A DNA stretch of 64,000 bases. Origin: a virus. Position 1 is the first letter of the stretch; each line of letters begins with the position of its first letter. The stretch is from positions 36,981 through 100,980 of the IMG/VR virus record IMGVR_UViG_3300020711_000298. One strand, written 5' to 3'. Below are positions 14,936-51,308 of this stretch, one piece after another. A program made the translations under genes and the position numbers. The notes under the pieces are model-generated. The model did no database searches and was not told the origin of the DNA. It worked only from the letters and a program-made list of their open reading frames with translations.

Positions 14936-14960
14936 TAGGGGACCTTTTAGGTCCCCTTAA
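14936..14960 (+). terminator. Rho-independent terminator after ribonucleotide reductase gene
   Basis: GGGGACC (14938-14944), TTTTA loop, GGTCCCC (14950-14956), then a T/A-rich tail. It closes the replication operon before the exported-protein genes. Confidence 0.85.
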
Positions 14961-15024
14961 TATTTATAGGAAAAGGTTATTCAAATTGTTTTTTATTTAA
15001 CATTTTAAACATTTTTATAACCAA

Positions 15025-16938
15025 ATGAAAAAAATTATTTTATTTATTCTAGTTGCGCTGTTGCCGTTTCTAGTTAAAAGTCAAACAATCCCCGCAGCTC
15101 CTGGTACAGGACATTATGTAATTATTGATACTGGGTACAATGTAGGTCCAACCGCAACAGGTACAACTACTGCTACTCTTTATTTCAGAAACAGCACTAC
15201 TAGTGATAAAATCACAGGTATGCAATTTAGAATATGGTACGATAGTCTAGCATTTAATGGTGCTTCTCCAACAGTATCATTACTTTATAGTTCTGCTAAC
15301 AAATATATACAATATGTTACTGATACAACTCATGGTAGTATCACTATCACTTTAGTTTATACTGGTAGTAGTTCAACTTATAATTTAGGAGATAGCGCGG
15401 CTTTTGCTATTACTTTCACTCACAATACTAATACATCTTTATTCAATACTTTAGATAGTATAAAAACACTAAAAGTATCAGGCGCTCAAACATACACTAA
15501 TTTAGCGTCTACTGTTTATGGTAATGATACTACATTAACTATTTACAGTTATGGTGGTAGATTTAATCGTCCTTTCCTTCATTATCATGGTCAATTTGTA
15601 AATGTTACCGGTACTAACACTAGAAACATAACTGTTTCTTTAGAGAAAAAACCTAAAACAAGTGGTACTTGGGTTAATATAAGTACTCAAACAACAGGTG
15701 CTGATGGTAAATTTAATTTTACAACTATATTAGATACTACTTATTGGGCTGCTAGATTAAATATTGAAGGTGATACAATGAATATAGGTAATATTATATC
15801 AACAGCCGATGCTCAAAAAATAAATCGTTTTGTACTTGGATTAGACAATCCTCAAGCTTTTGATTTTTACACTTCTGATGTAAACGGAGACCATAAAATA
15901 TCGATTTCAGATGAATATACTGTTTATGGTAGAATAGCAGGTAGATTTAGTACTTGGGTAAATGGTGTTAAAGATGTTTTATTCTTTACCTCAACCGAAT
16001 ATAGTACTATTTCTTCAAACCCAAATACAAATTATACAGCAACTATCTCAGGTACAACAAACGTATTATTTAATATAGTTGGTGGTAGCGTCGATTCAGT
16101 AACATATTATGTTGTGGGTGTAGGTGATGCTAATGGTACTGGATTTAAAATGGCTAAACTTACTCCAATTCAAATTATTAATCCCAACAATAACAACTAT
16201 ATAATAGATGAAACTGTTGAGTATTATGTAAATAATTTAAATACAATTGAAGTTAATTTACCTTCATTATCAGTAGATGCAGGTAATTTAGTAAATATAC
16301 CTATTAAAGTACTTACAAATGGCGAACAAATAGGTTCATTACAGTTAGCTTTAAAATTTGATACTACATTACTTGATTTTAAAGGTGTAATATCTGAGGA
16401 AAAAGTAGGTAATTGGATGTCATTTATAAACCCAAACAGTGGAGTAGTTGAATGGGGTGGATTTGATGCTAGTAATAATCAACATCTTTTAAATAATGAA
16501 GATCAAGTAGTAACATTACAATTTTTAGCTAAACAACCTAAAGATAATTGGACAACTTCTCCAATATATGTTACTCGTAAATTTGCAGGTAATGCTTTAG
16601 CTACTGATTTAAATATTAATCCTACTGATGGTAGAATTGAAGTTATGAGAATGTCTTCACCTGCTATTAATACAGATAATAATATTGCTTCTATTAATGT
16701 TTATCCTAATCCAACTAGTGGAGAAGTAGTAATTCATTTTTCTGTTCCTAAAGATGGTAATGTGACAGTTGCTTTTTATGATGTTAACGGAAAGAAAAAA
16801 TACACAGTAATACAAACCACAATGCCTAAAGGTGTTTATGCTTACAAAGCAAATATAGATGGATTAGCTAAAGGAGCATATAACGTTGTAATAACAACAA
16901 ATGAATCATCAGCTTACAATAAAACAATTTTAAACTAA
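15025..16938 (+). CDS. Secreted cohesin-like/dockerin protein with T9SS C-terminal sorting domain
   Basis: 637 residues. A signal peptide (1-20, ending LVKSQ) is followed by a beta-rich domain with cohesin character (~30-150). A dockerin-type module lies at ~252-312 with the calcium loop DVNGDHKISISD (285-296), and a second cohesin-like domain at ~411-505 (NIPIKVL, IGSLQLALKFD, VVTLQFLA). The final ~80 residues match the Por/T9SS sorting domain: INVYPNPTSGEVVIHF, then 'FYDVNGKK', 'KGAYNVVI' and a KTILN end. Such tails direct Bacteroidota proteins through the outer membrane to the surface. In a phage this implies export by the infected host, perhaps to alter the cell surface or capture glycans. 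A virion role is possible but does not explain the signal peptide. Confidence 0.75.
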   Translation: MKKIILFILVALLPFLVKSQTIPAAPGTGHYVIIDTGYNVGPTATGTTTATLYFRNSTTSDKITGMQFRIWYDSLAFNGASPTVSLLYSSANKYIQYVTDTTHGSITITLVYTGSSSTYNLGDSAAFAITFTHNTNTSLFNTLDSIKTLKVSGAQTYTNLASTVYGNDTTLTIYSYGGRFNRPFLHYHGQFVNVTGTNTRNITVSLEKKPKTSGTWVNISTQTTGADGKFNFTTILDTTYWAARLNIEGDTMNIGNIISTADAQKINRFVLGLDNPQAFDFYTSDVNGDHKISISDEYTVYGRIAGRFSTWVNGVKDVLFFTSTEYSTISSNPNTNYTATISGTTNVLFNIVGGSVDSVTYYVVGVGDANGTGFKMAKLTPIQIINPNNNNYIIDETVEYYVNNLNTIEVNLPSLSVDAGNLVNIPIKVLTNGEQIGSLQLALKFDTTLLDFKGVISEEKVGNWMSFINPNSGVVEWGGFDASNNQHLLNNEDQVVTLQFLAKQPKDNWTTSPIYVTRKFAGNALATDLNINPTDGRIEVMRMSSPAINTDNNIASINVYPNPTSGEVVIHFSVPKDGNVTVAFYDVNGKKKYTVIQTTMPKGVYAYKANIDGLAKGAYNVVITTNESSAYNKTILN

Positions 16939-16951
16939 AACAAAACAAATT

Positions 16952-17293
16952 ATGTCAGAAGAAACAAAAACAACCGACGGGGGTTGGTCAGGTCTAAAGA
17001 AAACATTAATAGGTACACTTACAACAGTTATCGCTGGTGCTGGTGTTTGGGTAAGTTCATTTTTGGGTGGTCATAAAGAAGAACCTAAAGCAGAACCTAA
17101 AGCCGCTACTGCTGCCCCTGCTCCAGCTGCTGCTGCTCCTGCCGCTGCTCCTGTGATTATTAATTTATCAAATAATAACACAAACCAACAAAAACAAACA
17201 GGTGGTAGTGCAACAGCCTCAGCTGCTACTAAAGAAAAACCAGTTGAGAAAAAAGAAACTAAAAAGAGCGAAACACAAGATGCTCCTTGGTAA
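16952..17293 (+). CDS. Small single-pass membrane protein, Ala/Pro-rich
   Basis: 113 residues. A short polar N-terminus, one hydrophobic segment (~18-40), then an Ala/Pro/Lys-rich stretch and a Lys/Glu-rich end. No signal cleavage site. It lies between two exported-protein genes. It could be an inner-membrane anchor, an energy-coupling or spanin-like partner, or a small holin; the sequence does not decide. Confidence 0.55.
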   Translation: MSEETKTTDGGWSGLKKTLIGTLTTVIAGAGVWVSSFLGGHKEEPKAEPKAATAAPAPAAAAPAAAPVIINLSNNNTNQQKQTGGSATASAATKEKPVEKKETKKSETQDAPW

Positions 17294-17307
17294 TTAAAAT
17301 TAACTCT

Positions 17308-18018
17308 ATGAAAATATTATATGTTATAGCTTTAATGCTGTTACCCTTTATTAGTGTTGCTCAAATCGGTTCTATTAAAACCGAACAATATCATGCCCGC
17401 TTTGAAAAAGGAATCTCATTAGATAGTGTTCTTAATTATAAGGACACTGTCAAAATTCCTATTCAATTATTAAAAGTAGGAATCAATTCAGAACTATATG
17501 AAATGTATCCTGAATTAAAAGATAAACGTGTTGGTTTGGGTGTAACAAACATTGTAATTGAATTTTTAGAAGAAACCAATCGCTTTGTATTTACTGAAGA
17601 TAAATTAGAAATCAAAGAAAGAATGATTGCTGAATATAAAGCATCAGCAAAAGGTTTTACTGAAAATAAAATAGATGGTAAAGGTAAAATCAAATTAGCC
17701 AAATATTTTGTTTATATCGAAGTATATGACTTTTCAGTATCTGAAGATGAAATAGTAAAAGCTAAAGATGGATCTAAAGTTACTCAAACAACTCGTTTAG
17801 GTTTACAAATCAAGTTTGTAGATGCAGAATCAGGAGAAATAATAACTGGTAGTGATATGGGTGAGGCTTCAACTGTAAAAACATCTAATCTTTTAGGTGA
17901 CATAGATGAAATTAAATTTAATCAATCCACAATAGGTATTTCTACTAAAAAAGCACTTGAATCTGCTTCAGTAAATGTCATTTTAAAATTGATTAAAAAA
18001 GGTGTATTTAAAAACTAA
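17308..18018 (+). CDS. Exported CsgG-like protein
   Basis: Start chosen at ATG 17308, giving a clean signal peptide (residues 1-18, ending SVAQ); an upstream TTG would add seven residues before it. The mature part follows the CsgG plan: a short 'GLGVTNIVIEFLEETNRFVF' repeat-like core, a 'YFVYIEVYDFSVSEDE' strand, 'LGLQIKFVDAESGEIITGSD', and a C-terminal helix with Ala/Ser. CsgG family proteins form outer-membrane pores for curli export. There is no lipobox Cys after the signal, unlike E. coli CsgG, so pore formation is not certain. Its stop overlaps the next gene. Confidence 0.6.
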   Translation: MKILYVIALMLLPFISVAQIGSIKTEQYHARFEKGISLDSVLNYKDTVKIPIQLLKVGINSELYEMYPELKDKRVGLGVTNIVIEFLEETNRFVFTEDKLEIKERMIAEYKASAKGFTENKIDGKGKIKLAKYFVYIEVYDFSVSEDEIVKAKDGSKVTQTTRLGLQIKFVDAESGEIITGSDMGEASTVKTSNLLGDIDEIKFNQSTIGISTKKALESASVNVILKLIKKGVFKN

Positions 18019-19141
18019 AATATTAATCTTATTAGTATTGTTTGGACTGACTTCTTATGGTCAGTCTTTTACATATTCCTATAAAGATCCATGTAATGGT
18101 ACTTTAAAAACATTAATAATACCAGCAAGCCAAAATACAATATCTGTTACTTACTATAATCAAATACAAACATTTAATATAAACGATTTTTCTAATGGTG
18201 TTTTTGATAAGTGGGTATCAAATACTTACAGTCAATATAGCGTTACATCTCCTTGTAGTGGATTAGCATTTACTGCTACTACTAAACAAAACCAAGAACT
18301 TACAGCTACATTAACCGGGCTAGTAACCACTTTAACAAACCTAAACTTCCCCGATCCTAATACTCCAGACCCAGGTGAACCCGTTCCTACCCCTGATATT
18401 CCTTCAGGTAGTGGTTCTTCAGATGTATTAAGTGGTACAAGTAATAGTGTAACATCATCAAGTGGAGGTGGAAGCGATTCAAAACCATCTTCAAGTTCTA
18501 AAGACAAACCAGGAGTATTAAAACCAACAATTGTAGGTAGTTCAGATCTACTTGCTTTTAGCAATACAGATGCTTCTAAAGGTGGTAAAGTATCAGGTGG
18601 TTATACTTCTACAAGATGGGATGGTAAAGTATCTCATGGTATAATGTTTGATTATTCAACTAATATCCAAGGTCCTAATATAACTGGATTTTATTCGTTT
18701 GCTAAAGGTAAAAGAATGAATTTGATATCAAATACTATTTCTATTGGTTTTAGTGGGAAAGGATTATTTTATAGTACATTAGCTGCTGGTCAACTTAGAA
18801 ATTATAAAAAAATAAAAATAATAGGTTTATTAGCAGGTACGTATGGAGAAATGTATCAACAAAAACTTATAGGTACTTCTATAATAACTGGTTTGATGTA
18901 TGATATGAAAGTAGGTAAAAAAATAGCAATAAAATTTACAAATTTGTTTGTATATTCTCCTTACATGCAATATTACAATGATATGTTATTAAAATCACCT
19001 TATGTTATTTTACCTTCTATTGGTACAAATTTAAGCTTATCTAAATCATTTAAATTTAATATCAATGCAGGTGGTGCTTATCAAGTTAATAGCGGAGCTC
19101 TTAATTATACAATAACAATAGGAACAAGGTTAGCATTATGA
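18002..19141 (+). CDS. Exported outer-membrane beta-barrel-like protein
   Basis: 379 residues from a GTG start overlapping the CsgG-like gene by 17 bases. Signal peptide 1-20 (ending TSYGQ), an N-terminal domain (~22-115) with two Cys (34 and 84), a Pro/Ser/Gly-rich linker (~118-175), then ~200 residues of alternating amphipathic strands ending TITIGTRLAL, as in Bacteroidota outer-membrane barrels. The barrel is inferred from strand pattern and the terminal aromatic/hydrophobic strand. Its overlap with both neighbours shows it belongs to the same operon. Confidence 0.6.
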   Translation: MYLKTKILILLVLFGLTSYGQSFTYSYKDPCNGTLKTLIIPASQNTISVTYYNQIQTFNINDFSNGVFDKWVSNTYSQYSVTSPCSGLAFTATTKQNQELTATLTGLVTTLTNLNFPDPNTPDPGEPVPTPDIPSGSGSSDVLSGTSNSVTSSSGGGSDSKPSSSSKDKPGVLKPTIVGSSDLLAFSNTDASKGGKVSGGYTSTRWDGKVSHGIMFDYSTNIQGPNITGFYSFAKGKRMNLISNTISIGFSGKGLFYSTLAAGQLRNYKKIKIIGLLAGTYGEMYQQKLIGTSIITGLMYDMKVGKKIAIKFTNLFVYSPYMQYYNDMLLKSPYVILPSIGTNLSLSKSFKFNINAGGAYQVNSGALNYTITIGTRLAL

Positions 19142-20298
19142 TAAAATATATTTTAACTATATTATTTACCTTATTTTCTCTAGCACTACTAGGACAAACA
19201 TTTACTTATTCAGGATACATTTATAATGCTGATGGTAGTGGAGCAGGTAATGTTCCTGTTAAATTATATTCAAGAACCACCACCACCACTGTTGTAAGTA
19301 ATTTAAATACAAAGATATACTCAACACACAATGGAAACGGTAGCACAAACCAGTACAACCAGTATGCAAGTACTGTAACCGATATGGGTTACTTTTTCAA
19401 CACAGGATATAGCAACACTAGGTTAAACTGGTCCGGTACTTTACCTGCTACTACCGTGTTAAATTGGGGTACCTGGACTACTCTATATTATGCAGGAGCT
19501 AGTGTACCAAATGGAGGAGATTATTTTTCAACCGATGTTACAGCCACCTTTGTACCTAAAGAAACAGGTACATACTATTTTGGTGTTAATTCAGATGATG
19601 CTGGTGATATTTTAATAAACGGAAGTCTAGTTGCTTCTTATTATGGTGGTCATGGTATGGGAGGATATCAAATAGGTGGTATTTCTATGACAGCCGGCAC
19701 ATCTTATACCTTTGAAGCAAGACAACAAGAATATGGTGGTGGTGAAGGTTTGGCTGTTGCTTGGAAAAGACCATCTCAATCAACTTATACTTTACAAACA
19801 GACGAGATAGGAACTGCTACCACAACTACTTCTGCTTGGTCTTTATATGGGACTTACTACACAGATTCTACAGGTAAGTATACAATAAGTGTACCTACAA
19901 ATTCTACCTTAAGTTGGCAATTAGAATTTGATGCTTATACTCCCTCTACAACATTACAAATCTCAGATTTTATAGGTATAGACAATGTTATACTTAATAA
20001 AACAATATTAAATGGTTTACATTATTATCTATATGATTTAAATAGTACTAACAATATTACAATATCAGATTTGTATTATATAGCAGGTAAAAAAAGTGGT
20101 AGATTTTCTACTTGGGGAAATTCATTTACCTCAAGATTATTTACTCCGTCTCAATATACTTCTATAACCTCAACAACATCAAATTTAAAATCTACTTATC
20201 CTGGTGTAACTCAAATTTTAATATCACCAGCAACAAGTGGAGGCACTGCAAATTATTATCTAATAGCCCCAGGTTATTCTGGAAAAGTAAATTATTAA
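19138..20298 (+). CDS. Secreted PA14-dockerin protein
   Basis: 386 residues. Signal peptide 1-20 (ending LLGQ), then a PA14-type beta-barrel domain (~120-225): 'GTYYFGVNSDDAGDILINGS', 'GGISMTAGTSYTFEAR' and 'EGLAVAWKRPSQ'. PA14 domains often bind glycans. A dockerin-like module follows (~270-325) with the loop DLNSTNNITISD and GRFSTW, closely matching the module in the cohesin-like protein at 15025. There is no T9SS tail; the protein could be held on the surface by binding a cohesin. Its ATG overlaps the stop of the barrel gene. Confidence 0.7.
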   Translation: MIKYILTILFTLFSLALLGQTFTYSGYIYNADGSGAGNVPVKLYSRTTTTTVVSNLNTKIYSTHNGNGSTNQYNQYASTVTDMGYFFNTGYSNTRLNWSGTLPATTVLNWGTWTTLYYAGASVPNGGDYFSTDVTATFVPKETGTYYFGVNSDDAGDILINGSLVASYYGGHGMGGYQIGGISMTAGTSYTFEARQQEYGGGEGLAVAWKRPSQSTYTLQTDEIGTATTTTSAWSLYGTYYTDSTGKYTISVPTNSTLSWQLEFDAYTPSTTLQISDFIGIDNVILNKTILNGLHYYLYDLNSTNNITISDLYYIAGKKSGRFSTWGNSFTSRLFTPSQYTSITSTTSNLKSTYPGVTQILISPATSGGTANYYLIAPGYSGKVNY

Positions 20299-20301
20299 AA
20301 T

Positions 20302-20748
20302 ATGAAAAAATTATTATTCGCTTTAATGTTAATTCCTACTCTATCATTTGGACAATGTGTAAGAGTTGATTCTGTTTGGTGTAACAAAAAAGTTAAACAA
20401 ATAGGCACCAGAAGTGTTCTTTTAGGTGTAAAACAAATAACTGAAGAAATATTATCAGAAAAATATAAACTTTGTGATTCTAATGCAATTTCGGTTAAAA
20501 TAGAAATATATAAAATAGGTATGCCTTCAAGCAATTTTAAAATAGCAGGCGCCGGAGAAGCCAAACAAACCACACAAGTTTACACTAGAATGTATTTTGG
20601 CGATAAAGTTGTAGAAGGATTAGGTGAATCTGAAACTAAAGCAGGTTACATACTTATTGAATTAAATGACGATAAAATACCATTTAGTAATACAACAATA
20701 GGTAATGCATTAAAGAAATCAATACTCGATGCTTCCGGAAAATTATAA
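20302..20748 (+). CDS. Small exported protein in the surface cassette
   Basis: 148 residues with a signal peptide (1-17, ending SFGQ) and two Cys near the mature N-terminus (19 and 27). The core has strand patterns 'VSVKIEIYKIG'-like and 'TQVYTRMYFGDKVVEG', followed by a C-terminal helix with 'GNALKKSILDA', reminiscent of the CsgG-like protein's end. It may be a small paralogue or accessory of that protein. Last gene of the cassette. Confidence 0.55.
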   Translation: MKKLLFALMLIPTLSFGQCVRVDSVWCNKKVKQIGTRSVLLGVKQITEEILSEKYKLCDSNAISVKIEIYKIGMPSSNFKIAGAGEAKQTTQVYTRMYFGDKVVEGLGESETKAGYILIELNDDKIPFSNTTIGNALKKSILDASGKL

Positions 20749-20756
20749 TATTTATA
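20747..20756 (+). promoter_or_regulatory. AATATTTATA motif before lysis genes
   Basis: The same 10-mer occurs upstream of the tail gene at 849 (826-835), after the terminator at 14959-14968, and at 58895-58904. It does not fit the -33/-7 promoter and may be a late-phase signal, but AT-rich DNA makes chance hits likely. Confidence 0.25.
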
Positions 20757-20778: not shown

Positions 20779-21075
20779 ATGAACTTTAAACAATGGATTA
20801 TTGATCTTTTCAAAGATGAAAGAGGATCAACATCAGTAAAACCAGTAGTGGCCGTGATTGGCACTTTATTTCTTTGCGTAACTATGACATTAAACAGTTA
20901 CACACATGAAGAATTTAAACCAGCTCCAGAATTAGTAAACGCTGTATTAGTTATAACAGCAATTGGTATGGGTGCTGATACTTTAGATAAATTCACTACA
21001 AAGAAACCAGACCCAATTACTCCAGCTGCTCCTGCTGAAACACCAACCCCAGAAGAAACATCAACAGAAGCGTAA
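20779..21075 (+). CDS. Holin candidate
   Basis: 98 residues with two hydrophobic segments (~21-40 and ~52-68), a charged N-terminus (KQWIIDLFKDERG) and a Pro/Glu/Thr-rich hydrophilic tail. Size and topology fit a two-segment holin, which would open the inner membrane for the endolysin. The Ntn-hydrolase gene starts immediately after its stop codon and the GH19 endolysin gene follows. Confidence 0.6.
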   Translation: MNFKQWIIDLFKDERGSTSVKPVVAVIGTLFLCVTMTLNSYTHEEFKPAPELVNAVLVITAIGMGADTLDKFTTKKPDPITPAAPAETPTPEETSTEA

Positions 21076-21975
21076 ATGATAAAACTAACCAGTATCTTAA
21101 AGAGTATAGCAAATAAATCAACACTTAATGAGTGTGTTGTAGCAGCTATTAAACTCGGTAATGACAAAATTTTAGCTAAAAATAGAGATCGCGCTTATGA
21201 TCCTACTATTAAAATTATTCATGAGTTAATAGACGATATAGAAGTTTGTTATCTATATGATGAAATTACCGATTACTCTGAAGGTATGAATGAGTATGGT
21301 ATAGGTATTATAAATGCTTCATTAATGGTGGCTGAAGATGAAGCTCAAGGCACTATGCAAAGTAGTGAAAAAAATGATAAGAAAAAAACAGCTTCTCCAT
21401 CATATGATGGTATGAAAATAAGACACGCCTTAGCTAACAAAAAATTATCTAAGGCGGTTCGTTCTATAGTATCATACCAAGGTGAAGACCCAAAAGAAGT
21501 AGGTATTAAAGGTGAAACTATAGTTTCTAATCCTAAATATACCTTTATCGTTGAACTTACAAGTAAACATTTACCTGTAATTACAAAAATGAAACCTGAC
21601 ACTAAAGTAGTAGTACGAACAAATCATGGAATACACTATAAAGATGCAGGTTACACTAGTGGACCTAAAAGAGCATCATCTATTTCTAGAAAAGAAATAG
21701 CTCAAAAAGAGTTAGAAGACATAAAAAATGAAAATGAAATTCTTCCTGTATTGTCTAAATCTATAACAACAGATAATTACAATAATCCTTATAGAACAGA
21801 TAATAAATATGGAATGAATACAACATCACAAATTAAAATGAATCTAACTCAACTTACTTTTGAACTAGATTATGATGATGAACACAGCAAATTTGAAGGA
21901 TACGAAAATAAACTCCCAGAAGGATATGAGCCTAAAATAAAGGTAAGATTTAAACAAACAGAATTACATAAATAA
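21076..21975 (+). CDS. Ntn-hydrolase-like amidase
   Basis: 299 residues. The region from Cys20 reads CVVAAIKLGNDKILAKNRDR, then 'YLYDEITDYSEGMNEYGIGI', which is the N-terminal nucleophile hydrolase pattern (C45/choloylglycine-hydrolase-like: Cys nucleophile, NRD, and NE.G). If so, the first 19 residues would be removed by self-processing to free Cys20. The second half is not recognised. It lies between holin and endolysin genes with no gap, so a role in lysis or in cutting an envelope amide is plausible but unproven. Confidence 0.5.
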   Translation: MIKLTSILKSIANKSTLNECVVAAIKLGNDKILAKNRDRAYDPTIKIIHELIDDIEVCYLYDEITDYSEGMNEYGIGIINASLMVAEDEAQGTMQSSEKNDKKKTASPSYDGMKIRHALANKKLSKAVRSIVSYQGEDPKEVGIKGETIVSNPKYTFIVELTSKHLPVITKMKPDTKVVVRTNHGIHYKDAGYTSGPKRASSISRKEIAQKELEDIKNENEILPVLSKSITTDNYNNPYRTDNKYGMNTTSQIKMNLTQLTFELDYDDEHSKFEGYENKLPEGYEPKIKVRFKQTELHK

Positions 21976-21987
21976 AAAACAAATAAA

Positions 21988-22587
21988 ATGGATTTACAAA
22001 AACTAAAAGGACACGTTCCTGATTCGGTTATTGAAATGTTACCGGATACAATCGCGAAATTTGAATTAAATACACCATTACGCTTAGCACACTTTTTAGC
22101 TCAAGCAGGTCATGAATCAGGTGGTTTTAAAGCATTAAATGAAAACCTAAATTATGGAGCTAAAGGTTTACGTAGCATCTTTGGAAAATATTTTCCTGAT
22201 GACGCTAAAGCAGCTTTATATGAACGTAAACCTGAAAAAATAGCTAACTTAGTTTATGGTAATCGTATGGGTAATGGTCCTGAAACATCAGGTGATGGTT
22301 GGAAATTTCATGGTCGTGGATTTATTCAATTAACTGGTAAAGAAAATTATGCTGCTTTTAGTAAAGAAATAAATGAAGATTGCGTTACTAATCCAGATTT
22401 AATCGCAACTAAATATCCTTTAGCCTCTGCTGCTTGGTTTTTTCATAAAAATGGATTACATAAAATAGCTGACGAAGGTGCTAACGAAGCAACAGTCACT
22501 AAAGTTACTAAAAAAGTAAATGGTGGTGTTTTAGGTCTTGAAGATAGACAAAGACACTTTAATGAATACTATTCTTTAATAAAATAA
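21988..22587 (+). CDS. Endolysin, glycoside hydrolase family 19
   Basis: 199 residues. GH19 features: 'AHFLAQAGHESGGF' (catalytic Glu), NLNYGAKGLRSIFGKYF, 'NRMGNGPETSGDGWKFHGRG' and 'FIQLTGKENYAAFSKE', 'ASAAWFFHKNGL', VTKKVNGG. These enzymes cut glycan strands of peptidoglycan. No signal peptide, so release depends on the holin. A strong terminator follows directly. Confidence 0.93.
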   Translation: MDLQKLKGHVPDSVIEMLPDTIAKFELNTPLRLAHFLAQAGHESGGFKALNENLNYGAKGLRSIFGKYFPDDAKAALYERKPEKIANLVYGNRMGNGPETSGDGWKFHGRGFIQLTGKENYAAFSKEINEDCVTNPDLIATKYPLASAAWFFHKNGLHKIADEGANEATVTKVTKKVNGGVLGLEDRQRHFNEYYSLIK

Positions 22588-23281: not shown

Positions 23282-23464
23282 ATGAAATACGTTTTATTAT
23301 TTATATCGTTTTTAATTACATTTTCTTCATGTGTAATGGTAGAACCTCCACATATACAACCTAATGTATATTATGGTGTATCTTATTATCCTAGACCATA
23401 TTACACACATCATGTTCGTCATTATTATAATTGCCAACACAATTACTATAATCACAGACATTAA
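23282..23464 (+). CDS. Small His/Tyr-rich lipoprotein
   Basis: 60 residues. A signal sequence ends in the lipobox FSSC, so Cys17 would be lipidated. The mature 44 residues are rich in Pro, Tyr and His (HHVRHYYNCQHNYYNHRH). Small, Pro-containing outer-membrane lipoproteins beside a membrane coiled-coil protein are typical of o-spanins, and the next gene starts at its stop codon. Metal binding by the His-rich end is another possibility. Confidence 0.55.
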   Translation: MKYVLLFISFLITFSSCVMVEPPHIQPNVYYGVSYYPRPYYTHHVRHYYNCQHNYYNHRH

Positions 23465-24366
23465 TGAATAAAATAAAACCCTTTATATTCCCAACAATAG
23501 TAGCGCTTTCAGCTTTGTCTGTAAGCACTTCTGCTGCTTTTTACAGTGTTAGTGGTTTAATTAAATTATTTGCGGGGGCCGCATTTGCTGTGGGTATAAT
23601 GGCTGGATCTTTAGAAATCGCCAAACTCGTCACAGCATCATTACTTTACCAATATTGGGGTAAATTAAACAAAGTATTACGTACTTATTTAACAATAGCC
23701 GCTATTGTTTTAGTATTAATAACTTCGGCTGGTATTTATGGTTTTTTATCTGCTGCTTACCAAACCACAGCAAATAAAGAAGCAATAACAGAACAACGTA
23801 TTGCTGCTCTAGAAACCAAAAAACATTTATACGAACAAAACCGCGATAACTATCTCTCAGAAAAGAAATCATTAACACAAAATACTTCCGAGTTACGTTC
23901 TGCTTTAACAAATGAAAAATTAAAAAGTAAAAAATCATTTGAAAAGCAAATTAATAATATTTCTAAAACAGATGATAGAGTATCTTCCAAATTAGATATA
24001 TCAAATGACTCTATATTTGCTCTAAATAATAGAATTTTAGAATTAAAAACCAATAGCTCATCTACTTCAGAACTTGGCCCTTTAAAATATTTAAGTAATC
24101 TTACAGGTAAACCAATGGATAAAATCATCAACTGGTTATTACTTGTAATAATATTTGTTTTTGATCCTTTAGCTATTGCTTTAGTAATAGCTGCTAATTT
24201 TGCTTTTTCTCAAATAAAAAAAACAGATGAACCATTGTTTGAAGAAAATATAGAAGAAATAAAAGAAATTGAAAATACTCAAATAGAACAAACCATCCCA
24301 TCTCTTGCAGAAAGTGGATTAAGTCCTAAAGAATACGCTAAAATTTATCGTAAAAGACCTCATTAA
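23464..24366 (+). CDS. Multi-pass membrane protein with coiled coil
   Basis: 300 residues. Hydrophobic segments at ~9-30, ~34-52 and ~75-97, a charged coiled-coil stretch (~100-200), another long hydrophobic segment (~218-248), and an acidic tail. No enzyme motif. Together with the preceding lipoprotein it could act in the last lysis step, disrupting the outer membrane as i-spanins do, though four membrane segments are more than usual. An envelope or superinfection-exclusion role is also possible. Confidence 0.5.
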   Translation: MNKIKPFIFPTIVALSALSVSTSAAFYSVSGLIKLFAGAAFAVGIMAGSLEIAKLVTASLLYQYWGKLNKVLRTYLTIAAIVLVLITSAGIYGFLSAAYQTTANKEAITEQRIAALETKKHLYEQNRDNYLSEKKSLTQNTSELRSALTNEKLKSKKSFEKQINNISKTDDRVSSKLDISNDSIFALNNRILELKTNSSSTSELGPLKYLSNLTGKPMDKIINWLLLVIIFVFDPLAIALVIAANFAFSQIKKTDEPLFEENIEEIKEIENTQIEQTIPSLAESGLSPKEYAKIYRKRPH

Positions 24367-24369
24367 AAG

Positions 24370-24402
24370 TTTGGTTTTTTAAATAGTTTTAAATATATTT
24401 AT
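24370..24402 (+). promoter_or_regulatory. -33/-7 promoter for the deazaguanine operon
   Basis: TTTGG with TTTG at 24370-24373, 20 bases, TATATTTA at 24394-24401. The DpdA-like gene starts 18 bases further on. Confidence 0.65.
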
Positions 24403-35167: not shown

Positions 35168-35458
35168 ATGAAGTTACAAGCAGTGTACAATGCGGTTATC
35201 ATAAAACCGTTTAATGAAGAAGAAATCAAATACGGAAGTATTATCGTCCCAGATCTTGGAAAAGAAAAAAATCTTAGCGGAACTGTAGTTTCTGTAGGAC
35301 CAGGCCAATATTCACTTACTGGTACTCTTATCCCAACTGTACTTAAAGAAGGACAAAAAGTTATATTACCTCAAATGGGCCCCGTGAAAGTAGAACATGA
35401 TGGTGAAGAATATTACGTATGCCCAGAAAATCAAGTATTAGCAATTTTAAACGATTAA
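35168..35458 (+). CDS. groES: Co-chaperonin GroES
   Basis: 96 residues, normal GroES length. 'YNAVIIKPFNEEEIKYGSII' gives the first strand, 'PDLGKEKNLSGTVVSVGPG' the mobile loop region, then 'VKEGQKVILPQMG'-like and 'YYVCPENQVLAIL'. It caps the GroEL ring encoded 10 bases downstream. Codon use matches the neighbouring genes, so it is long resident in the phage. Confidence 0.93.
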   Translation: MKLQAVYNAVIIKPFNEEEIKYGSIIVPDLGKEKNLSGTVVSVGPGQYSLTGTLIPTVLKEGQKVILPQMGPVKVEHDGEEYYVCPENQVLAILND

Positions 35459-35468
35459 AATAAGTTAT

Positions 35469-37085
35469 ATGAGTAAAATTATAGAATTCGGCCCAGAAGC
35501 TAGAAAAAAATTATTTAATGGAGTTGAGAAATTATCCAACGCTGTTACATCAACTTTAGGCCCTAATGGTCGTAATGTTGTTATTTCAAAACCAGGTGAA
35601 TACCCAGCTAGTACAAAAGATGGAGTTACTGTAGCTAAATCAATAACACTTGAAGATCCAATTGAAGAATTAGGTGTACAAATGGTTAAACAAGCTGCTA
35701 TTAAAACAGCAGATACAGCTGGTGATGGTACAACTACATCAACTTTATTAGCGACCGAAATGGTTAGACAAGGTTTAACGCATTTAAGTAACGGAGCTAA
35801 CGCGGTAGAAATTAAACGCAGTATAGATGCCGCTGTTAAAGATGTCCTTGAATTTATACGCACACAAATTAAAGAAAATATATCATCTGAGGAACAACTA
35901 AAACAAATTGCTTCCATCTCAGCAAATAACGATCCTGAAGTAGGAGAATTAATTGCTACAGCTATGGAAAAAGTAGGTCGTGAAGGTGTTGTTCATATTG
36001 AAGAATCAAAATCAGGTGAAACATATCTTGAAACAGTAGAAGGTATGCAGTTTGATCGTGGTTATAAATCACCTTATTTTGTTACTGATAATAACTCAAT
36101 GACTAGTACTTTAAATGATGTTTTAATTCTTATAGCAGATAAAAAATTCACTCAAGTAAAAGAATTATTACCTATACTTGAAGCTGTATCTCAACAAAAT
36201 AAATCTTTACTTATTGTAGCTGAAGATGTTGAAGGTGAAGCATTAGCTACACTTATTGTAAATAAAGCTAGAGGTATATTAAAAGTAGCGGCTGTAAAAG
36301 CTCCTGATTTTGGTGATCGTCGTAAATTGATTTTGGAAGATATGGCTATTTTAACAGGTGGTCAAGTGTTTAGTACTGAAAAAGGTATGAAATTAGATAA
36401 ATTTAGTTGGGATTGGTTTGGTAAAGCACGTGTTGTAACAATTACTAAAGACACTACTACTATTATTGATGGTAAAGGAGATGAAAATTCTGTATCACAA
36501 CGTATAACAGAACTACAACAACAAATTGAAAATTCAAAAACACCATTTGAACAAGAAAAATTACAAGAACGTTTAGCTAAATTTATAGGTGGTGTAGCAA
36601 TTATTCATGTTGGTGGAAATACTGAAACCGAAATGAAAGAAAAGAAAGATCGTGTAGATGATGCTTTACATGCTACAAAAGCAGCCATTGAAGAAGGTAT
36701 TGTACCAGGTGGTGGAGTAGCATTATTACACGCACGTAATGGTATTAAAAACCGTGATACTATTGGCTCTAATATAGTTTGGCATGCTTGCGCAGCCCCA
36801 CTTAATAAAATACTTAAAAACGCAGGATATGAAGATTTAGCAATATTCCAAGTTATAAGTGATACTAACAACAGTGAAAATTGGAATGGTTGGGATTTGA
36901 AAGAAGAAAAATTAACCAACATGAAAGAAGCAGGAATCATCGATCCAGCCAAAGTAACCCGTTGCGCTCTTGAAAATGCAGCATCAGTAGCAGGAACCAT
37001 TTTGTTAACAGAATGTACTGTTGTTGATAAACCAGAAGAAAAGAAAGCAGACGAAGGATTTGGAGGTATGGGAGGAATGTTTTAA
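35469..37085 (+). CDS. groEL: Chaperonin GroEL
   Basis: 538 residues, full length. 'KLSNAVTSTLGPNGRNVVIS', 'STKDGVTVAKSI', AGDGTTTSTLLA (nucleotide binding), 'VVHIEESKSGETYLETVEGM', 'ALHATKAAIEEGIVPGGGVA' and the C-terminal GGMGGMF tail are all present. With the phage GroES it likely folds phage proteins such as capsid or replisome subunits. Complete chaperonin pairs are rare in phages. Located inside the replisome cluster. Confidence 0.97.
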   Translation: MSKIIEFGPEARKKLFNGVEKLSNAVTSTLGPNGRNVVISKPGEYPASTKDGVTVAKSITLEDPIEELGVQMVKQAAIKTADTAGDGTTTSTLLATEMVRQGLTHLSNGANAVEIKRSIDAAVKDVLEFIRTQIKENISSEEQLKQIASISANNDPEVGELIATAMEKVGREGVVHIEESKSGETYLETVEGMQFDRGYKSPYFVTDNNSMTSTLNDVLILIADKKFTQVKELLPILEAVSQQNKSLLIVAEDVEGEALATLIVNKARGILKVAAVKAPDFGDRRKLILEDMAILTGGQVFSTEKGMKLDKFSWDWFGKARVVTITKDTTTIIDGKGDENSVSQRITELQQQIENSKTPFEQEKLQERLAKFIGGVAIIHVGGNTETEMKEKKDRVDDALHATKAAIEEGIVPGGGVALLHARNGIKNRDTIGSNIVWHACAAPLNKILKNAGYEDLAIFQVISDTNNSENWNGWDLKEEKLTNMKEAGIIDPAKVTRCALENAASVAGTILLTECTVVDKPEEKKADEGFGGMGGMF

Positions 37086-42268: not shown

Positions 42269-43771
42269 ATGTTTAAACCAGTTAGTTTATTTTACACAGA
42301 CGGATATAAGATTGGCCACAAGAAAATGTTGGCCCCAGGAACCACAAAATTATATGGTACTTGGATTCCTCGTAGCACAAAGTATGCTCCTACCGGTGTT
42401 ACAAAAATAGTATCGTTTGGTCAACAGCTTGTAGTTCGTTGGTTAAATGATGAGTTTACAGAACATTTTTTCAACCAACCAAAATCAGTAGCAACCCAAT
42501 TTGGTAAAGATATGTCAATGTATCTTGGAATGGATTATGATGCTACCCATTTTGAAGCACTTCATGATTTAGGTTATTTACCTATTCGAATTAAAGCATT
42601 ACCAGAAGGTATTGAAACATTACCTAATGTTCCTCATATGACCTTTATTAACACCGTAGATGGTTTTGCTTGGTTAACTTTATATTTGGAAACAATTATT
42701 TCCTCTTTGGCTTGGAAACCTTCAACATCAGCCACTATTGCTCTACAATATCGTAGGAATTTAGTTCAATGGGTTATGAAAACAGATCCGGCTAATGCAT
42801 TTTTAATTCCTTTCCTTGCTCATGATTTCTCTGCTCGCGGTTTATCACCTTGGGATATGTTATCAAGCGGTTTAGGACATGCTACTTCGTTTAGAGGTTC
42901 TGATACCATTATTTGTATTCCGGGTGCTCGTTATTTTTATAATGAACCTGAAACAGAGGTTTGTATCAATTCAGTAAATGCTTCTGAACATAGCGTTTCA
43001 ACAACTAAAATCTTTACGGTTGGTGAACAACAAATGATTGCGGATTGGTTGGTTGATTTTCCTAAAGGAATATTATCAATCGTATCAGATACATTTGATT
43101 TATGGAAATTAATTACCGAATATTTACCAGCAAACAAAGAAGCGATAATGGCTCGTGACGGTAAGTTAGTCATTCGTCCTGACTCAGGTGATCCAGTTGA
43201 TATTATCTGTGGTTCATTTTTACAAAGTGACCGAGATTTATCGGAAAACAAAAATGCAATTTGGACAAGTGAAGAAAAAGGTGTAATCGAATTACTTTGG
43301 GAAATCTTCGGTGGTACAATCAACGAACAAGGTTACAAAGTTCTTGATCCACACATCGGAGCCATTTACGGTGACTCAATTACATTGGAACGTCAGATTC
43401 AAATATATGAAAGGTTAGCCGCTAAAGGTTTTGCTTCAACTAATATTGTACTCGGTATTGGTTCTTATACATATCAAATGAATACTCGTGATACATTAGG
43501 TTTTGCTGCTAAAGGTGCCTGGTTTGAAGTTGATAAAAATGGTACTAAGGTTGGTTATGATATTTACAAAGATCCAGTAACCGATTCAGGTAAAACAAAG
43601 AAATCTTTGAAAGGTCTTATTATGGTAGATGAAAATCTTGAAGTACACACCCAATGTACACCTCAACAAGAGGCTCAAGGTTTACTACAAACCATTTATA
43701 TGGATGGTAAATTCTACAATCAAACAACATTAACTGAAATTCGCGCTAAACTTGAACAAATATGCAAATAA
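42269..43771 (+). CDS. NAMPT-like nicotinamide (ADP-ribosyl/phosphoribosyl)transferase
   Basis: 500 residues, the full length of nicotinamide phosphoribosyltransferase. YTDGYKIGHKKM at the N-terminus, 'HDFSARGLSPWDML' and ATSFRGSDTI, ASEHSV (active-site His), SDTFDLWKLI, VIRPDSGDPVDI, 'GAIYGDSITLERQIQIYERL' and 'IYKDPVTDSGKTKKSLKGLI' follow the family. NAMPT joins nicotinamide to PRPP; the phage variant Namat joins it to ADPR-pyrophosphate to give NAD+ directly. Paired with the Prs-like gene, and no NMN adenylyltransferase gene is seen here, so the direct route is favoured. Confidence 0.92.
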   Translation: MFKPVSLFYTDGYKIGHKKMLAPGTTKLYGTWIPRSTKYAPTGVTKIVSFGQQLVVRWLNDEFTEHFFNQPKSVATQFGKDMSMYLGMDYDATHFEALHDLGYLPIRIKALPEGIETLPNVPHMTFINTVDGFAWLTLYLETIISSLAWKPSTSATIALQYRRNLVQWVMKTDPANAFLIPFLAHDFSARGLSPWDMLSSGLGHATSFRGSDTIICIPGARYFYNEPETEVCINSVNASEHSVSTTKIFTVGEQQMIADWLVDFPKGILSIVSDTFDLWKLITEYLPANKEAIMARDGKLVIRPDSGDPVDIICGSFLQSDRDLSENKNAIWTSEEKGVIELLWEIFGGTINEQGYKVLDPHIGAIYGDSITLERQIQIYERLAAKGFASTNIVLGIGSYTYQMNTRDTLGFAAKGAWFEVDKNGTKVGYDIYKDPVTDSGKTKKSLKGLIMVDENLEVHTQCTPQQEAQGLLQTIYMDGKFYNQTTLTEIRAKLEQICK

Positions 43772-47821: not shown

Positions 47822-49255
47822 ATGAAACCACAGTTTATGTATTTACCTCCAGAGAAGAGGAAGAAAATTCTCCTAATCACAGACGATATTAGAGTACACT
47901 CAGGTGTAGCAACAGTAGGTAGAGAAATAATTTTACATACTGCTCAACATTTTAATTGGGTTAATATTGGAGGCTCAGTACAGCATCCTGAAGAAGGTAA
48001 ACGTTTAGATTTATCCCAATCAACTAATGAAACAGCAGGATTAACAGATTCATCTGTAACATTATACCCAACAAGCGGGTACGGAAACCCAGATATGTTA
48101 CGTGCTATAATTAATATTGAAAAACCAGATGCTTTAATGTTAATCACCGATCCAAGATATTTTACTTGGGTGTTTCAAATGGAAAATGAAATCCGTAAAA
48201 GTATTCCTATTACTTACTTAAACATATGGGATGATTATCCAGCTCCATTATATAACAGAGCTTTTTATGAATCATGTGATTTATTGATGGGTATAAGTAA
48301 ACAAACAGTCAATATTAATAAATTAGTATTAGGTGATAAAATAAAAAATAAAATTATAACTTATGTTCCTCATGGTTTGAATCATGAAATGATGAAACCT
48401 ATAGATAAAAATGATCCTGAATTAATTAAATTCAAGAAAAATTTATTTGGAAATAAAGAATATGATTTTGTTTTATTCTTTAATTCACGTAATATTAGAC
48501 GTAAACAAATACCTGACACAATGTTGGCTTATAAGTTATTTATAGATCAACTATCTATTGAACAAGCTAAGAAATGTGCTTTTGTATTACATACTGAAAT
48601 AGTAAGTGAACATGGTACTGATTTAGAAGCGGTTAGAGAATTACTTCTAAATGAAGATAAATATAATGTTTATTTCTCAACTGAAAGATATAGCACACAA
48701 CAAATGAATTTTTTATATAATTGTTCTGATGCTCAAATATTATTAACTTCAAATGAAGGATGGGGATTAAGTTTAACTGAAGCTATATTAGCAGGTAAAC
48801 CAATAATAGCTAATGTAACTGGTGGTATGCAAGATCAAATGCGTTTTTCTAAAGACGGTAAATGGATTGATTTTGATGCTGATTTTCCTTCAAATCATAA
48901 TGGTACAATTAAAGAATGTGGAGAATGGGCATTTCCGGTATTTCCATCTAATCGTTCTATTGTAGGTTCACCTATGACTCCTTATATTTGGGATGATAGA
49001 TGTACTGCTGAAGATGCTGCTATTCAAATTATGAATGTTTATCAATTAGATAAAGAAGAAAGAGAACGTAGAGGATTAGCAGGTAGAGAATGGGCTATTG
49101 GAGAAGAAGCAGGATTCACATCTGAAATAATGGGTGAAAGAGTTATAAATTCATTAGATATTTTATTTGATATTTGGGAACCAAGAGAAAAATATGAAAT
49201 AGTAAATGTAAATGAATCAAAAGATAACATTGTAAACCATAAATTAGTATATTAA
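47822..49255 (+). CDS. Glycosyltransferase, GT4 type
   Basis: 477 residues with two Rossmann-like halves. 'KILLITDDIRVHSGVATVGR' is the N-terminal nucleotide-binding start, 'YVPHGLNHEMM' the linker, and 'SNEGWGLSLTEAILAGKPII' contains the C-terminal E-x7-E donor-binding motif. It transfers a sugar from a nucleotide-sugar donor. First gene of a ~9 kb glycan cluster. The acceptor is unknown: phage DNA base, virion protein or host glycan. Confidence 0.82.
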   Translation: MKPQFMYLPPEKRKKILLITDDIRVHSGVATVGREIILHTAQHFNWVNIGGSVQHPEEGKRLDLSQSTNETAGLTDSSVTLYPTSGYGNPDMLRAIINIEKPDALMLITDPRYFTWVFQMENEIRKSIPITYLNIWDDYPAPLYNRAFYESCDLLMGISKQTVNINKLVLGDKIKNKIITYVPHGLNHEMMKPIDKNDPELIKFKKNLFGNKEYDFVLFFNSRNIRRKQIPDTMLAYKLFIDQLSIEQAKKCAFVLHTEIVSEHGTDLEAVRELLLNEDKYNVYFSTERYSTQQMNFLYNCSDAQILLTSNEGWGLSLTEAILAGKPIIANVTGGMQDQMRFSKDGKWIDFDADFPSNHNGTIKECGEWAFPVFPSNRSIVGSPMTPYIWDDRCTAEDAAIQIMNVYQLDKEERERRGLAGREWAIGEEAGFTSEIMGERVINSLDILFDIWEPREKYEIVNVNESKDNIVNHKLVY

Positions 49256-49256
49256 A

Positions 49257-49988
49257 ATGAAATTACTTAATATATTATTGGAAGTTTATAAAGAAGAATA
49301 TGAATTGAATCTTAAAGAGGGTTTAACTAAAACCACAGAAATAGGTCAAGCAGTCAATATTCTAAAAAAACAATTCCCTGATTGGATATTTCAGTATTAT
49401 AAAGGTGATAAGGATTTTACAATAGAAATTTTAAGAATAAAAAATGGTATTAACCTTGATTCTTTTGAAAAATTATTACCTTTATTAAATAATCTAAGTT
49501 ATTTTATTTCTTATATGGAGATATACGGTGATGATAGAGGCCGACGATTTGAAATTAAGGATAAATATGATGAAAAAATAGTTAAAAATAGTTTTCAAAA
49601 TCAAGATATTTATTCCATATATTTAGAATGTGAAGCCAAATTTGATCAAACTGTTAATAAAATACCTGAATTTTTATATCATGTTGCTCCTTTAAAAAAT
49701 TGGGAAAAAATCGAAAAAATAGGTTTGGTACCTAAATCAAGATCTAAAAAAGCTTTTCATCCTTATAGAGTATATTTAGGAAAAGATGAAAAAAATATAT
49801 TATCTTTAGCTCCAAAATTTTATCAAATTACAGGAATAAAAGAATGGGTATTATTAAAAATAGATACAAAATCTATTCCTGGAGATTATTTTAAACTATA
49901 TTATGATCCTAATTTTAAGTATGGGTTTTATACATTAAACAATATTCCATCTTACGCTATAGAAAAAATAAAAAATATTAATATTTAA
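49257..49988 (+). CDS. Possible ADP-ribosyltransferase-fold protein
   Basis: 243 residues. The first ~130 are helical and unrecognised. From residue 139 it reads 'FLYHVAPLKNWEKIEKIGLV' then 'HPYRVYLGKDEKN', and ends with KLYYDPNFKYGFYTLNNIP. A YH.AP..N...I...GL.P opening, an R-x-Y-L strand and a late aromatic loop are seen in ART-superfamily proteins such as DarT and KptA. The catalytic Glu is not obvious. It lies between two glycosyltransferase genes. An alternative is a structural or unknown fold. Confidence 0.4.
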   Translation: MKLLNILLEVYKEEYELNLKEGLTKTTEIGQAVNILKKQFPDWIFQYYKGDKDFTIEILRIKNGINLDSFEKLLPLLNNLSYFISYMEIYGDDRGRRFEIKDKYDEKIVKNSFQNQDIYSIYLECEAKFDQTVNKIPEFLYHVAPLKNWEKIEKIGLVPKSRSKKAFHPYRVYLGKDEKNILSLAPKFYQITGIKEWVLLKIDTKSIPGDYFKLYYDPNFKYGFYTLNNIPSYAIEKIKNINI

Positions 49989-50003
49989 TTAAAAACAAGT
50001 TAT

Positions 50004-51308
50004 ATGAGTAAACCACTACTTATAATTAGCTCCCCATTTGACACATATTCAGGTTATGGAGCCAGATCAAGAGATCTTATCAAAGCTATTATTGAATTAG
50101 ATAAGTATGATGTAAAATTATTATCACAACGTTGGGGAAATACACCTTTTGGATTCTGCAAAGATAATCCTGAATGGTCATTTTTAATGGAATGTATACT
50201 AAACACTCCTCAGCTTCCTAAACAACCCGAATTATGGATGCAAATTACAGTACCAAATGAATTCCAACCTATAGGTAAATTTAATATTGGATGTACTGCA
50301 GGTATTGAAACAACAAATTGCTCTTCAGAATGGATTGAAGGATGTAATAGAATGAATTTAAATTTAGTTTCATCTAATCACTCTAAAAAAGTATTTGAAG
50401 AATCAAAATTTCAAAAATTAAACAAACAAACTAATCAACCTGAAGGGATACTTCAATTAGAAAAACCAATGGAGGTATTATTTGAAGGAGCATTAACTGA
50501 TATTTTTCAAACTATAGAAAAACATCAAATTGAAAATATTAATTTAGATTCTATTAAAGAGGATTTTAATTATCTTTTTGTAGGCCATTGGTTACCAGGT
50601 GATATGGGTGAAGATAGAAAAAATGTTAGTTTATTGATTAAAGCTTTTTATGAAACATTTAAAAATAAAAGCAAAAAACCAGGACTAATTTTAAAAACAT
50701 CTATAGTTGGTTCATCATATATGGATAGAGATGAAATACTTAAACGTATTAAACAAATTAAAAAAACAGTTAATTCTAAAGATTTACCTAATATTTATTT
50801 ATTACAAGGAGAATTATCTGATTCGGAAATAAATGAATTATATAATCATCCCAAAGTAAAAGCAATGGTATGTTTAACTAAAGGTGAAGGTTTTGGTCGT
50901 CCATTGCTTGAATTTAGTTTAATTAAAAAACCTATTATCACTACAAATTGGAGTGGACATATAGATTTTTTAAATAAAGAATTTACACCATTAATTGGAG
51001 GTCAATTAACACCTGTTCATCCAAGTGCTGCTAACCAATTTTTACTTAAAGAAAGCCAATGGTTTTCACCTGATCTTGGTCAAGTAGGATTTTATTTAAG
51101 AGATATGTTTGAAAATTATAAAAACTATCTTACAGGTGCTAAACGTCAAGCATATAAAAGTAAAACTGAATTTAGTTGGGATAAAATGAAAGAAAAAATA
51201 GATTCAATATTTACACAATATGTACCTGAATTCCCTAAAGAAATTAAACTTAAACTACCAGAAATTAAAAAAATATCATTACCTAAAAAAGAAGAAATAA
51301 ATGGATAA
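50004..51308 (+). CDS. Glycosyltransferase, GT4 type
   Basis: 434 residues. LLIISSPFDTYSGYGARSRD opens the N-terminal domain; 'YLFVGHWLPGDMGEDRKNVS' and 'CLTKGEGFGRPLLEFSLIKK' carry the C-terminal donor-binding motif with a conserved Glu. Divergent from the GT4 protein at 47822. The next gene overlaps its end by 8 bases. Confidence 0.8.
   Translation: MSKPLLIISSPFDTYSGYGARSRDLIKAIIELDKYDVKLLSQRWGNTPFGFCKDNPEWSFLMECILNTPQLPKQPELWMQITVPNEFQPIGKFNIGCTAGIETTNCSSEWIEGCNRMNLNLVSSNHSKKVFEESKFQKLNKQTNQPEGILQLEKPMEVLFEGALTDIFQTIEKHQIENINLDSIKEDFNYLFVGHWLPGDMGEDRKNVSLLIKAFYETFKNKSKKPGLILKTSIVGSSYMDRDEILKRIKQIKKTVNSKDLPNIYLLQGELSDSEINELYNHPKVKAMVCLTKGEGFGRPLLEFSLIKKPIITTNWSGHIDFLNKEFTPLIGGQLTPVHPSAANQFLLKESQWFSPDLGQVGFYLRDMFENYKNYLTGAKRQAYKSKTEFSWDKMKEKIDSIFTQYVPEFPKEIKLKLPEIKKISLPKKEEING

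Follow-up and report, generated by a model that had tools for sequence, protein, structure and literature searches.

A six-gene exported cassette of large Bacteroidota phages with cohesin, dockerin, lectin-type and CsgG-fold proteins: a possible surface module

The 64,000-nucleotide stretch of viral DNA analysed here (the window) comprises bases 36981-100980 of the 100,980-base virus record IMGVR_UViG_3300020711_000298. At positions 15025-20748 it carries six consecutive open reading frames (ORFs) on the plus strand, designated A to F, which travel together in large Bacteroidota phages. That they form a late, exported and surface-directed module is well supported by their gene content. We tentatively favour, with somewhat less than even confidence, the view that this phage-specific envelope module displays lectins on a scaffold at the surface of infected Bacteroidota cells, where they would mask the glycans that serve as phage receptors. 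The gene content, co-inheritance, export signals, domain make-up, late-type motif, phage specificity and mobility of the cassette were established by computation; we infer the manner of assembly, the pairing of cohesins with dockerins, which protein passes through what, and the purpose of masking.

None of the six proteins matched a PHROG family at a meaningful level; that six such families travel as a set in large Bacteroidota phages suggests an important step of infection that has gone unstudied. If the proposed lectin coat is real, these phages cover the surface of their host anew with a modular scaffold and make use of the type IX secretion system (T9SS) to do so, and the cassette offers a direct way to study receptor masking, superinfection and the release of progeny in Bacteroidota. 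The question is testable, since Flavobacterium sp. LMO8 and its phage immuto are a cultured pair with a version of the set.

Cassette layout and export signals

The left arm of the record contains a T4-like structural set (terminase, portal, major head protein, tail sheath and tail tube), and replication genes open the window. The cassette is set between a ribonucleotide reductase gene and a holin-like/endolysin group. Its genes are separated by gaps of 14 bases or less, or else overlap, C and D by 17 nucleotides and D and E by 4. An earlier note on this DNA, made from the sequence alone, had described six consecutive and partly overlapping genes, five of them with signal peptides, as an operon and a possible phage-encoded surface system. 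All six ORFs lie where it placed them, and their near-gapless, co-directional arrangement and all-or-none co-occurrence (see below) agree with an operon. The signal peptides, the T9SS tail of A and the co-occurrence lend good support to the proposed surface system.

By the simple and crude rules that were used to call signal peptides and membrane segments, 7 of the 87 genes in the window begin with a signal peptide, A, C, D, E and F being among them. The signals are of the Bacteroidota type, and the residue that follows the predicted cut is Q in all five (KSQ, VAQ, YGQ, LGQ and FGQ).

These signals bear on whether the products could be components of the virion, for example a decoration or fibre set composed of A and E. 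Lectin and immunoglobulin (Ig)-like domains are common on virions, and a late-type motif such as that described below would suit such a role. Virion membership, which the earlier note had set against its own proposal, is nevertheless very improbable: the five signal peptides and the T9SS tail of A direct the proteins out of the cytoplasm, where virions assemble, and about 17 kb separates the cassette from the preceding end of the structural genes that were identified (terminase to tail tube).

The scaffold candidate A and its lectin-type partner E

Protein A (637 amino acids (aa), positions 15025-16938) is the candidate scaffold. Its signal peptide is followed by a first cohesin, an Ig-like linker, a dockerin plus X domain, a second cohesin and a T9SS type A sorting domain, such that the linker and the dockerin-X region sit between the cohesins. 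Pfam Cohesin matches two stretches of A (E 4.2e-9) and scores above its cut-off in A and its relatives. The tail matches Por_Secre_tail (E 1.4e-9) and TIGR04183 (E 4e-7) and is conserved in the relatives; a Sec signal peptide and a C-terminal sorting domain, the two marks of type A T9SS cargo, are thus both present. The A profile matched 154 of 198 Bacteroidia genomes, and the matches were almost confined to the final ~85 residues, which is what a genuine T9SS sorting tail should give. In the dockerin, three loop positions, D285, N287 and D296, do not vary across 32 A homologues (alignment A6). Of the two-repeat calcium-binding module expected of a dockerin, one EF-type loop was counted in 49 of the 53 A sequences and in 41 of the 42 E sequences, with Pfam Dockerin_1 below its cut-off (best E in the relatives, 0.0012). 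With this qualification on the dockerin score, the earlier description of A as a cohesin-like, dockerin- and T9SS-containing protein holds.

In some relatives gene A is divided into two ORFs (L006 7255-9144, L004 7014-8903 and L083 11598-13422), which part at a similar point beyond the dockerin-X region; the second half of the split A of immuto has a signal peptide of its own.

Protein E (386 aa, 19138-20298) consists of a signal peptide, a PA14 module (Pfam E 2.5e-10), an Ig-like linker and a dockerin plus X domain, without a T9SS tail, in agreement with its earlier designation as a PA14-dockerin protein. Over the dockerin-X region E and A are 28% identical (154 residues, E 1e-10). The relatives of E keep the dockerin end and carry at the front a C-type lectin, a LamG/ConA lectin, GEVED or PA14, so that the front appears to be an exchangeable sugar-binding tip. 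The E dockerin would, judging from the domains, pair with the cohesins of A.

Cohesin-dockerin scaffolds are known from bacteria. The cassette resembles those of the cellulosome type in combining a surface-held cohesin protein with separate dockerin-ended proteins that bear carbohydrate-binding tips, and differs from them in being phage-encoded, in its T9SS sorting tail, in a cargo without recognised enzymes and in the dockerin within A itself. No report of a phage cohesin/dockerin scaffold, or of phage use of the T9SS, was found in the open-access literature.

Variable lectin-type tips on a conserved scaffold would also suit an adhesive role, in which infected cells display phage lectins and stick to sister cells or particles, such that the progeny meet new hosts ("sibling capture"); a similar proposal has been made for the curli modules of pelagiphages (PMC7029224, PMC9599517). 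However, the cassette contains no fibre subunit, late expression would leave little time before lysis, and the curli-bearing phage that was examined gave no clumping (PMC9004378). We regard this role as improbable.

The CsgG-fold proteins C and F

Protein C (236 aa, 17308-18018) is exported and is the best-conserved component of the cassette; its start is most likely the ATG at 17308 and not the TTG at 17287. All structure models in this work are single-chain models of moderate confidence, and the AlphaFold2 model of C has a predicted local distance difference test score (pLDDT) of 68. In structure searches with this model CsgG came first (Foldseek E 2e-7); by VIA, CsgG gave Z 12.7 over 169 residues with a root-mean-square deviation of 3.9, followed by PelC (Z 10.4) and TraT (Z 8.2). 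The sequence gives a different picture. Pfam CsgG finds the CsgG of Melnitz, a Methylophilales phage used as control, at E 1.2e-48, whereas it finds nothing in the C protein of the window and only one of 34 C relatives, weakly (E 8.5e-4), and hhalign of C against Escherichia coli CsgG gave a probability of 1.2%. C has no clear sequence relatives outside phages, and searches of PDB sequences with the C, F and D profiles returned nothing meaningful.

The 36-strand pore of CsgG is built from two amphipathic transmembrane hairpins. In the sequence of C, about 12 residues separate the last strand from the C-terminal helix, at the place of the hairpin TM2, and the place of TM1 is charged (alignment A1); C apparently lacks the CsgG pore hairpins. 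We do not call C a pore because the second membrane hairpin of CsgG seems absent and the place of the first is charged. The earlier term "CsgG-like" is therefore apt for the predicted fold, and does not extend to the sequence of C in the window or to a CsgG-type pore.

Protein F (148 aa, 20302-20748), previously noted simply as a small exported protein, does carry a signal peptide and is in addition a shorter homologue of C (hhalign of alignments A1 and A2, 97%, E 9.4e-11), with an invariant Cys near its mature N-terminus (alignment A2).

TraT acts at the outer membrane to exclude. Such surface or superinfection exclusion proteins resemble the cassette in that the TraT fold is related to that of C; unlike TraT, C is no lipoprotein and is part of a six-gene set.

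The nearest described idea is that of phage-borne curli modules. The type VIII secretion (curli) modules of pelagiphages and Melnitz are exported, conserved in gene order and transferred between phages (PMC7029224, PMC9599517, PMC9004378), and share with the cassette the character of an ordered, multi-gene exported set of a lytic phage that moved between phage families and includes a CsgG-fold protein. The curli modules comprise a true CsgG, CsgF, curlin repeats, FecR and a cyclase and are of alphaproteobacterial origin; the cassette has none of those partners, contains cohesin, dockerin, lectin and T9SS parts, and has no bacterial source that we could find. That A-F are a variant of the pelagiphage curli operon is the least probable of the readings considered here. 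CsgG is the best structural match of C, but CsgF, curlin repeats, FecR and cyclase, all present in Melnitz, are missing from the cassette, and the sequence results for C given above argue the same way. Among A, B, D, E and F no Pfam match to CsgF or curlin repeats was found, while the CsgF control was found in Melnitz. Membership of the curli group was rejected for the missing CsgF, curlin and CsgG sequence signal; the predicted CsgG fold is shared.

Proteins D and B

Protein D (379 aa, 18002-19141) has a signal peptide, an N-terminal domain with an invariant Cys pair (C31 and C85), a helix, a disordered linker whose length is very variable among the relatives, and a barrel that the model (pLDDT 73) predicts to have 12 strands, in line with the outer-membrane barrel expected from the earlier reading. 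Its best structural matches are autotransporter translocators; NalP gave Z 24.5, KdgM 19.1 and FapF 18.1. As in the 12-strand translocators of FapF and the autotransporters, the barrel is preceded by a helix and an N-terminal domain; D differs from them by its very long disordered linker between helix and barrel and by the lack of any sequence relation.

Protein B (113 aa, 16952-17293) combines a weak N-terminal membrane segment, a Pro/Ala-rich stretch, a conserved N/Q-rich motif and a C-terminal acidic-x-(P/S)-W, the final residue being W in all 44 relatives. The single membrane segment that had been ascribed to this sixth gene is present, but it is weak (mean hydropathy 1.57) and falls under the threshold in 27 of the 44 relatives. 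B was also considered as a unimolecular spanin and rejected: it has neither a lipobox nor a C-terminal membrane segment, its weak segment is N-terminal and its C-terminus is soluble.

Co-occurrence, distribution and mobility

A search seeded with C, from which 80 viral loci on contigs of up to 434 kb were taken, revealed the same gene order in nearly all of them. Fresh searches were seeded with F, D and A, and the best 80 matches of each were used. Most carriers are metagenomic contigs, the seeds share contigs, and presence was judged only in loci of sufficient length. All six genes were found in every long locus (34/34 seeded with A, 53/53 with D and 50/50 with F), nearly always in the order A-B-C-D-E-F. 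The search for the same gene order in other phages, which the earlier note had proposed, thus returned complete sets, and the scattered or single genes that would have spoken against a system did not appear among these best matches; solitary copies among the weaker ones are possible. It is well supported that A-F constitute one system.

Among 50,697 phage records, C or A occurred only in isolates of Flavobacterium phage immuto, a cultured phage whose host is Flavobacterium sp. LMO8. Its cassette is rearranged: it opens with the lectin-dockerin gene, several genes together make up A, and gp016-gp019 then correspond to B, C, D and F. No paper on the immuto cassette was found in the open-access literature. 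The Bacteroidia genomes sampled for C (295) and for D (198) gave a single match, a 254-kb virus-like contig in a metagenome-assembled genome, which also carries the rest of the cassette. Since C was absent from the 294 other genomes and D from the 197 others, a recent bacterial capture was rejected.

The terminase of the window phage is 82% identical to that of L006, 78% to that of L048 and 63% to that of immuto, compared to 26-34% (partial matches) in twelve other cassette phages. C is 67-72% identical to its counterparts in those phages with distant (~30%) terminases, where measured, which suggests that the cassette block is passed between phages. Part of the contrast with the terminase could stem from strong constraint on C; block exchange is the simpler reading. 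Compared with the close relative L006, A, B, D and E are 52-60% identical, a level in keeping with proteins that are exposed and change fast, whereas C, the holin-like gene and the endolysin are 82-84% identical.

The set matches no described phage system, its novelty lying in its composition and in the lack of a fitting family. The earlier note had known of none either, and the open-access literature yielded none that fits; the cassette departs from curli systems, spanins and virion modules in features that were tested.

A late-promoter-like motif

Reading of the intergenic gaps identified a phage-specific motif, ATATTTATA, in front of the cassette. A terminator-like hairpin, read directly from the plus strand between the ribonucleotide reductase gene and A (GGGGACC-TTTTA-GGTCCCC followed by TT, 14938-14956), is directly followed by a plus-strand copy of ATATTTATA (14960-14968), 65 bp before A, as the putative late promoter element of the cassette. 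A second putative element (20748-20756, plus strand) lies 31 bp before the holin-like gene G. The 100,980-base genome contains 26 copies on the coding strand and one in reverse; 19 of the 26 fall within the 3% of the DNA that is intergenic, mostly before structural genes. The motif precedes A and G, and does not precede the ribonucleotide reductase, DnaB or recombinase genes. In immuto its core is found 25 bp before the terminase, 24 bp before the portal and 12 bp before the first cassette gene. Among 49 relatives, 16 have it before A, against an expectation of 2.1 from shuffles, and none has it before B, C, D or E. The 8-mer TATTTATA, counted over the whole loci of the relatives, shows no strand bias (114 vs 102) and is therefore informative there by position only.

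We read ATATTTATA as a late promoter from which the whole cassette would be expressed as a unit; the same motif may fill this role throughout the phage group, immuto included. Its core is the reverse complement of the T4 late motif, TATAAATA. The open-access literature contained nothing relevant on late promoters of Flavobacterium phages. The Bacteroidota promoter TAnnTTTG was also sought before A; it was not found in the window and occurred in 4 of 49 relatives. Further copies of ATATTTATA are located at window positions 24395 and 35138, and the motif also precedes a small gene before GroEL at 35168.

Proposed function and the lysis alternative

In the mechanism that we propose, A would be exported by Sec and then carried outside and anchored by the host T9SS, and its cohesins would hold E, with its dockerin and exchangeable sugar-binding tip. 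D would form a trans-envelope assembly together with C and F, which are presumed to be periplasmic and probably ring-forming, and with the small membrane proteins (B, and in most relatives a two-segment protein). This assembly would carry E, which has no T9SS signal, or a complex of A and E to the surface. The lectin coat would most likely cover receptor glycans, and thus block superinfection as well as the re-adsorption of progeny to the dying cell and debris. A more far-reaching formulation, to which we give less credence than to masking, is a surface organelle made by the virus, in which a cohesin-dockerin scaffold of cellulosome type would bear exchangeable lectin tips, be anchored by the T9SS and be served by a phage barrel and CsgG-fold rings; it would be built late and passed as a block between unrelated large phages.

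The strongest rival, because of embedded holin-like genes, is an outer-membrane stage of lysis, in which D, C, F, B and the embedded two-segment protein would breach or weaken the outer membrane, and A and E would loosen the glycan layer. A two-segment membrane gene of family f4 or f13 lies within the cassette, between A and D, in 42 of 50 representatives. An endolysin gene is often found directly before or after the cassette, A-F of the window run straight into G, H and the endolysin, and the late-type motif fits lysis too. For Melnitz phages, a role in lysis has been proposed for the phage CsgG pore (PMC9004378). On the other hand, the annotated holin of immuto and its adjoining endolysin are about 27 kb away from the cassette, with another endolysin about 6 kb off. 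The CsgG TM2 hairpin is apparently absent from C, family f4 has no match to a holin family, and it is not evident what lysis would gain from swappable lectins or from a cohesin scaffold anchored by the T9SS. Moreover, Bacteroidetes phages are reported to use unimolecular spanins (PMC12596118), and B has no lipobox or C-terminal membrane segment. On balance we consider the lysis stage unlikely, if the most serious of the alternatives.

Several points weigh against receptor masking by a lectin coat. The two-segment gene embedded in most relatives and the often adjacent endolysin fit lysis at least as well, and the lectins could equally serve adhesion. The cohesin-dockerin pairing is assumed from the domains, with dockerin scores below the Pfam cut-off, and the route of E across the outer membrane is likewise assumed. 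The model of C is of moderate confidence (pLDDT 68), and ATATTTATA is a putative promoter.

Lysis neighbours and other genes nearby

Directly after F, gene G (98 aa, 20779-21075, plus strand) codes for a holin-like membrane protein with two hydrophobic segments, of family f12; in L004 and L061 the cassette itself contains an f12 gene. Most relatives have an f4 two-segment gene that is missing from the window phage, and f4 as a known holin was rejected for want of any holin family match. The endolysin gene (21988-22587, plus strand) is of the GH19 type (phrog_181, E 1.9e-68; Pfam GH19, E 3.7e-8). The earlier statement that the cassette lies just before the lysis genes is true of the window, but this position is frequent and not constant in the relatives. 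Frequent neighbours of the cassette are the endolysin, f5 (exported, with an HESHH motif), f7 and f9 (an exported nuclease).

Between G and the endolysin, positions 21076-21975 encode a protein that weakly resembles C45 autoproteolytic acyltransferases (NCBIfam E 3.9e-6, below cut-off). After the endolysin, positions 23282-24366 encode a 60-aa lipoprotein-like ORF (lipobox-like SSC) and, directly behind it, a protein of 300 aa whose central part is charged and which has several membrane segments; the two are possibly a spanin-type pair. The exported HESHH protein (~150 aa), probably a metalloprotease, occurs in two settings, either behind F in the same orientation or ahead of A in the reverse orientation (L007 15723-16172, L008 14348-14812 and similar loci). 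In several phages the exported f9 DNA/RNA non-specific endonuclease is located between E and F (L034 13913-14500; Pfam Endonuclease_NS, E 2.7e-22). Farther along the window, the phage encodes a GroEL, a nicotinamide phosphoribosyltransferase and two glycosyltransferases (35469-37085, 42269-43771 and 47822-51308); the two glycosyltransferases may bear on host surface glycans too.

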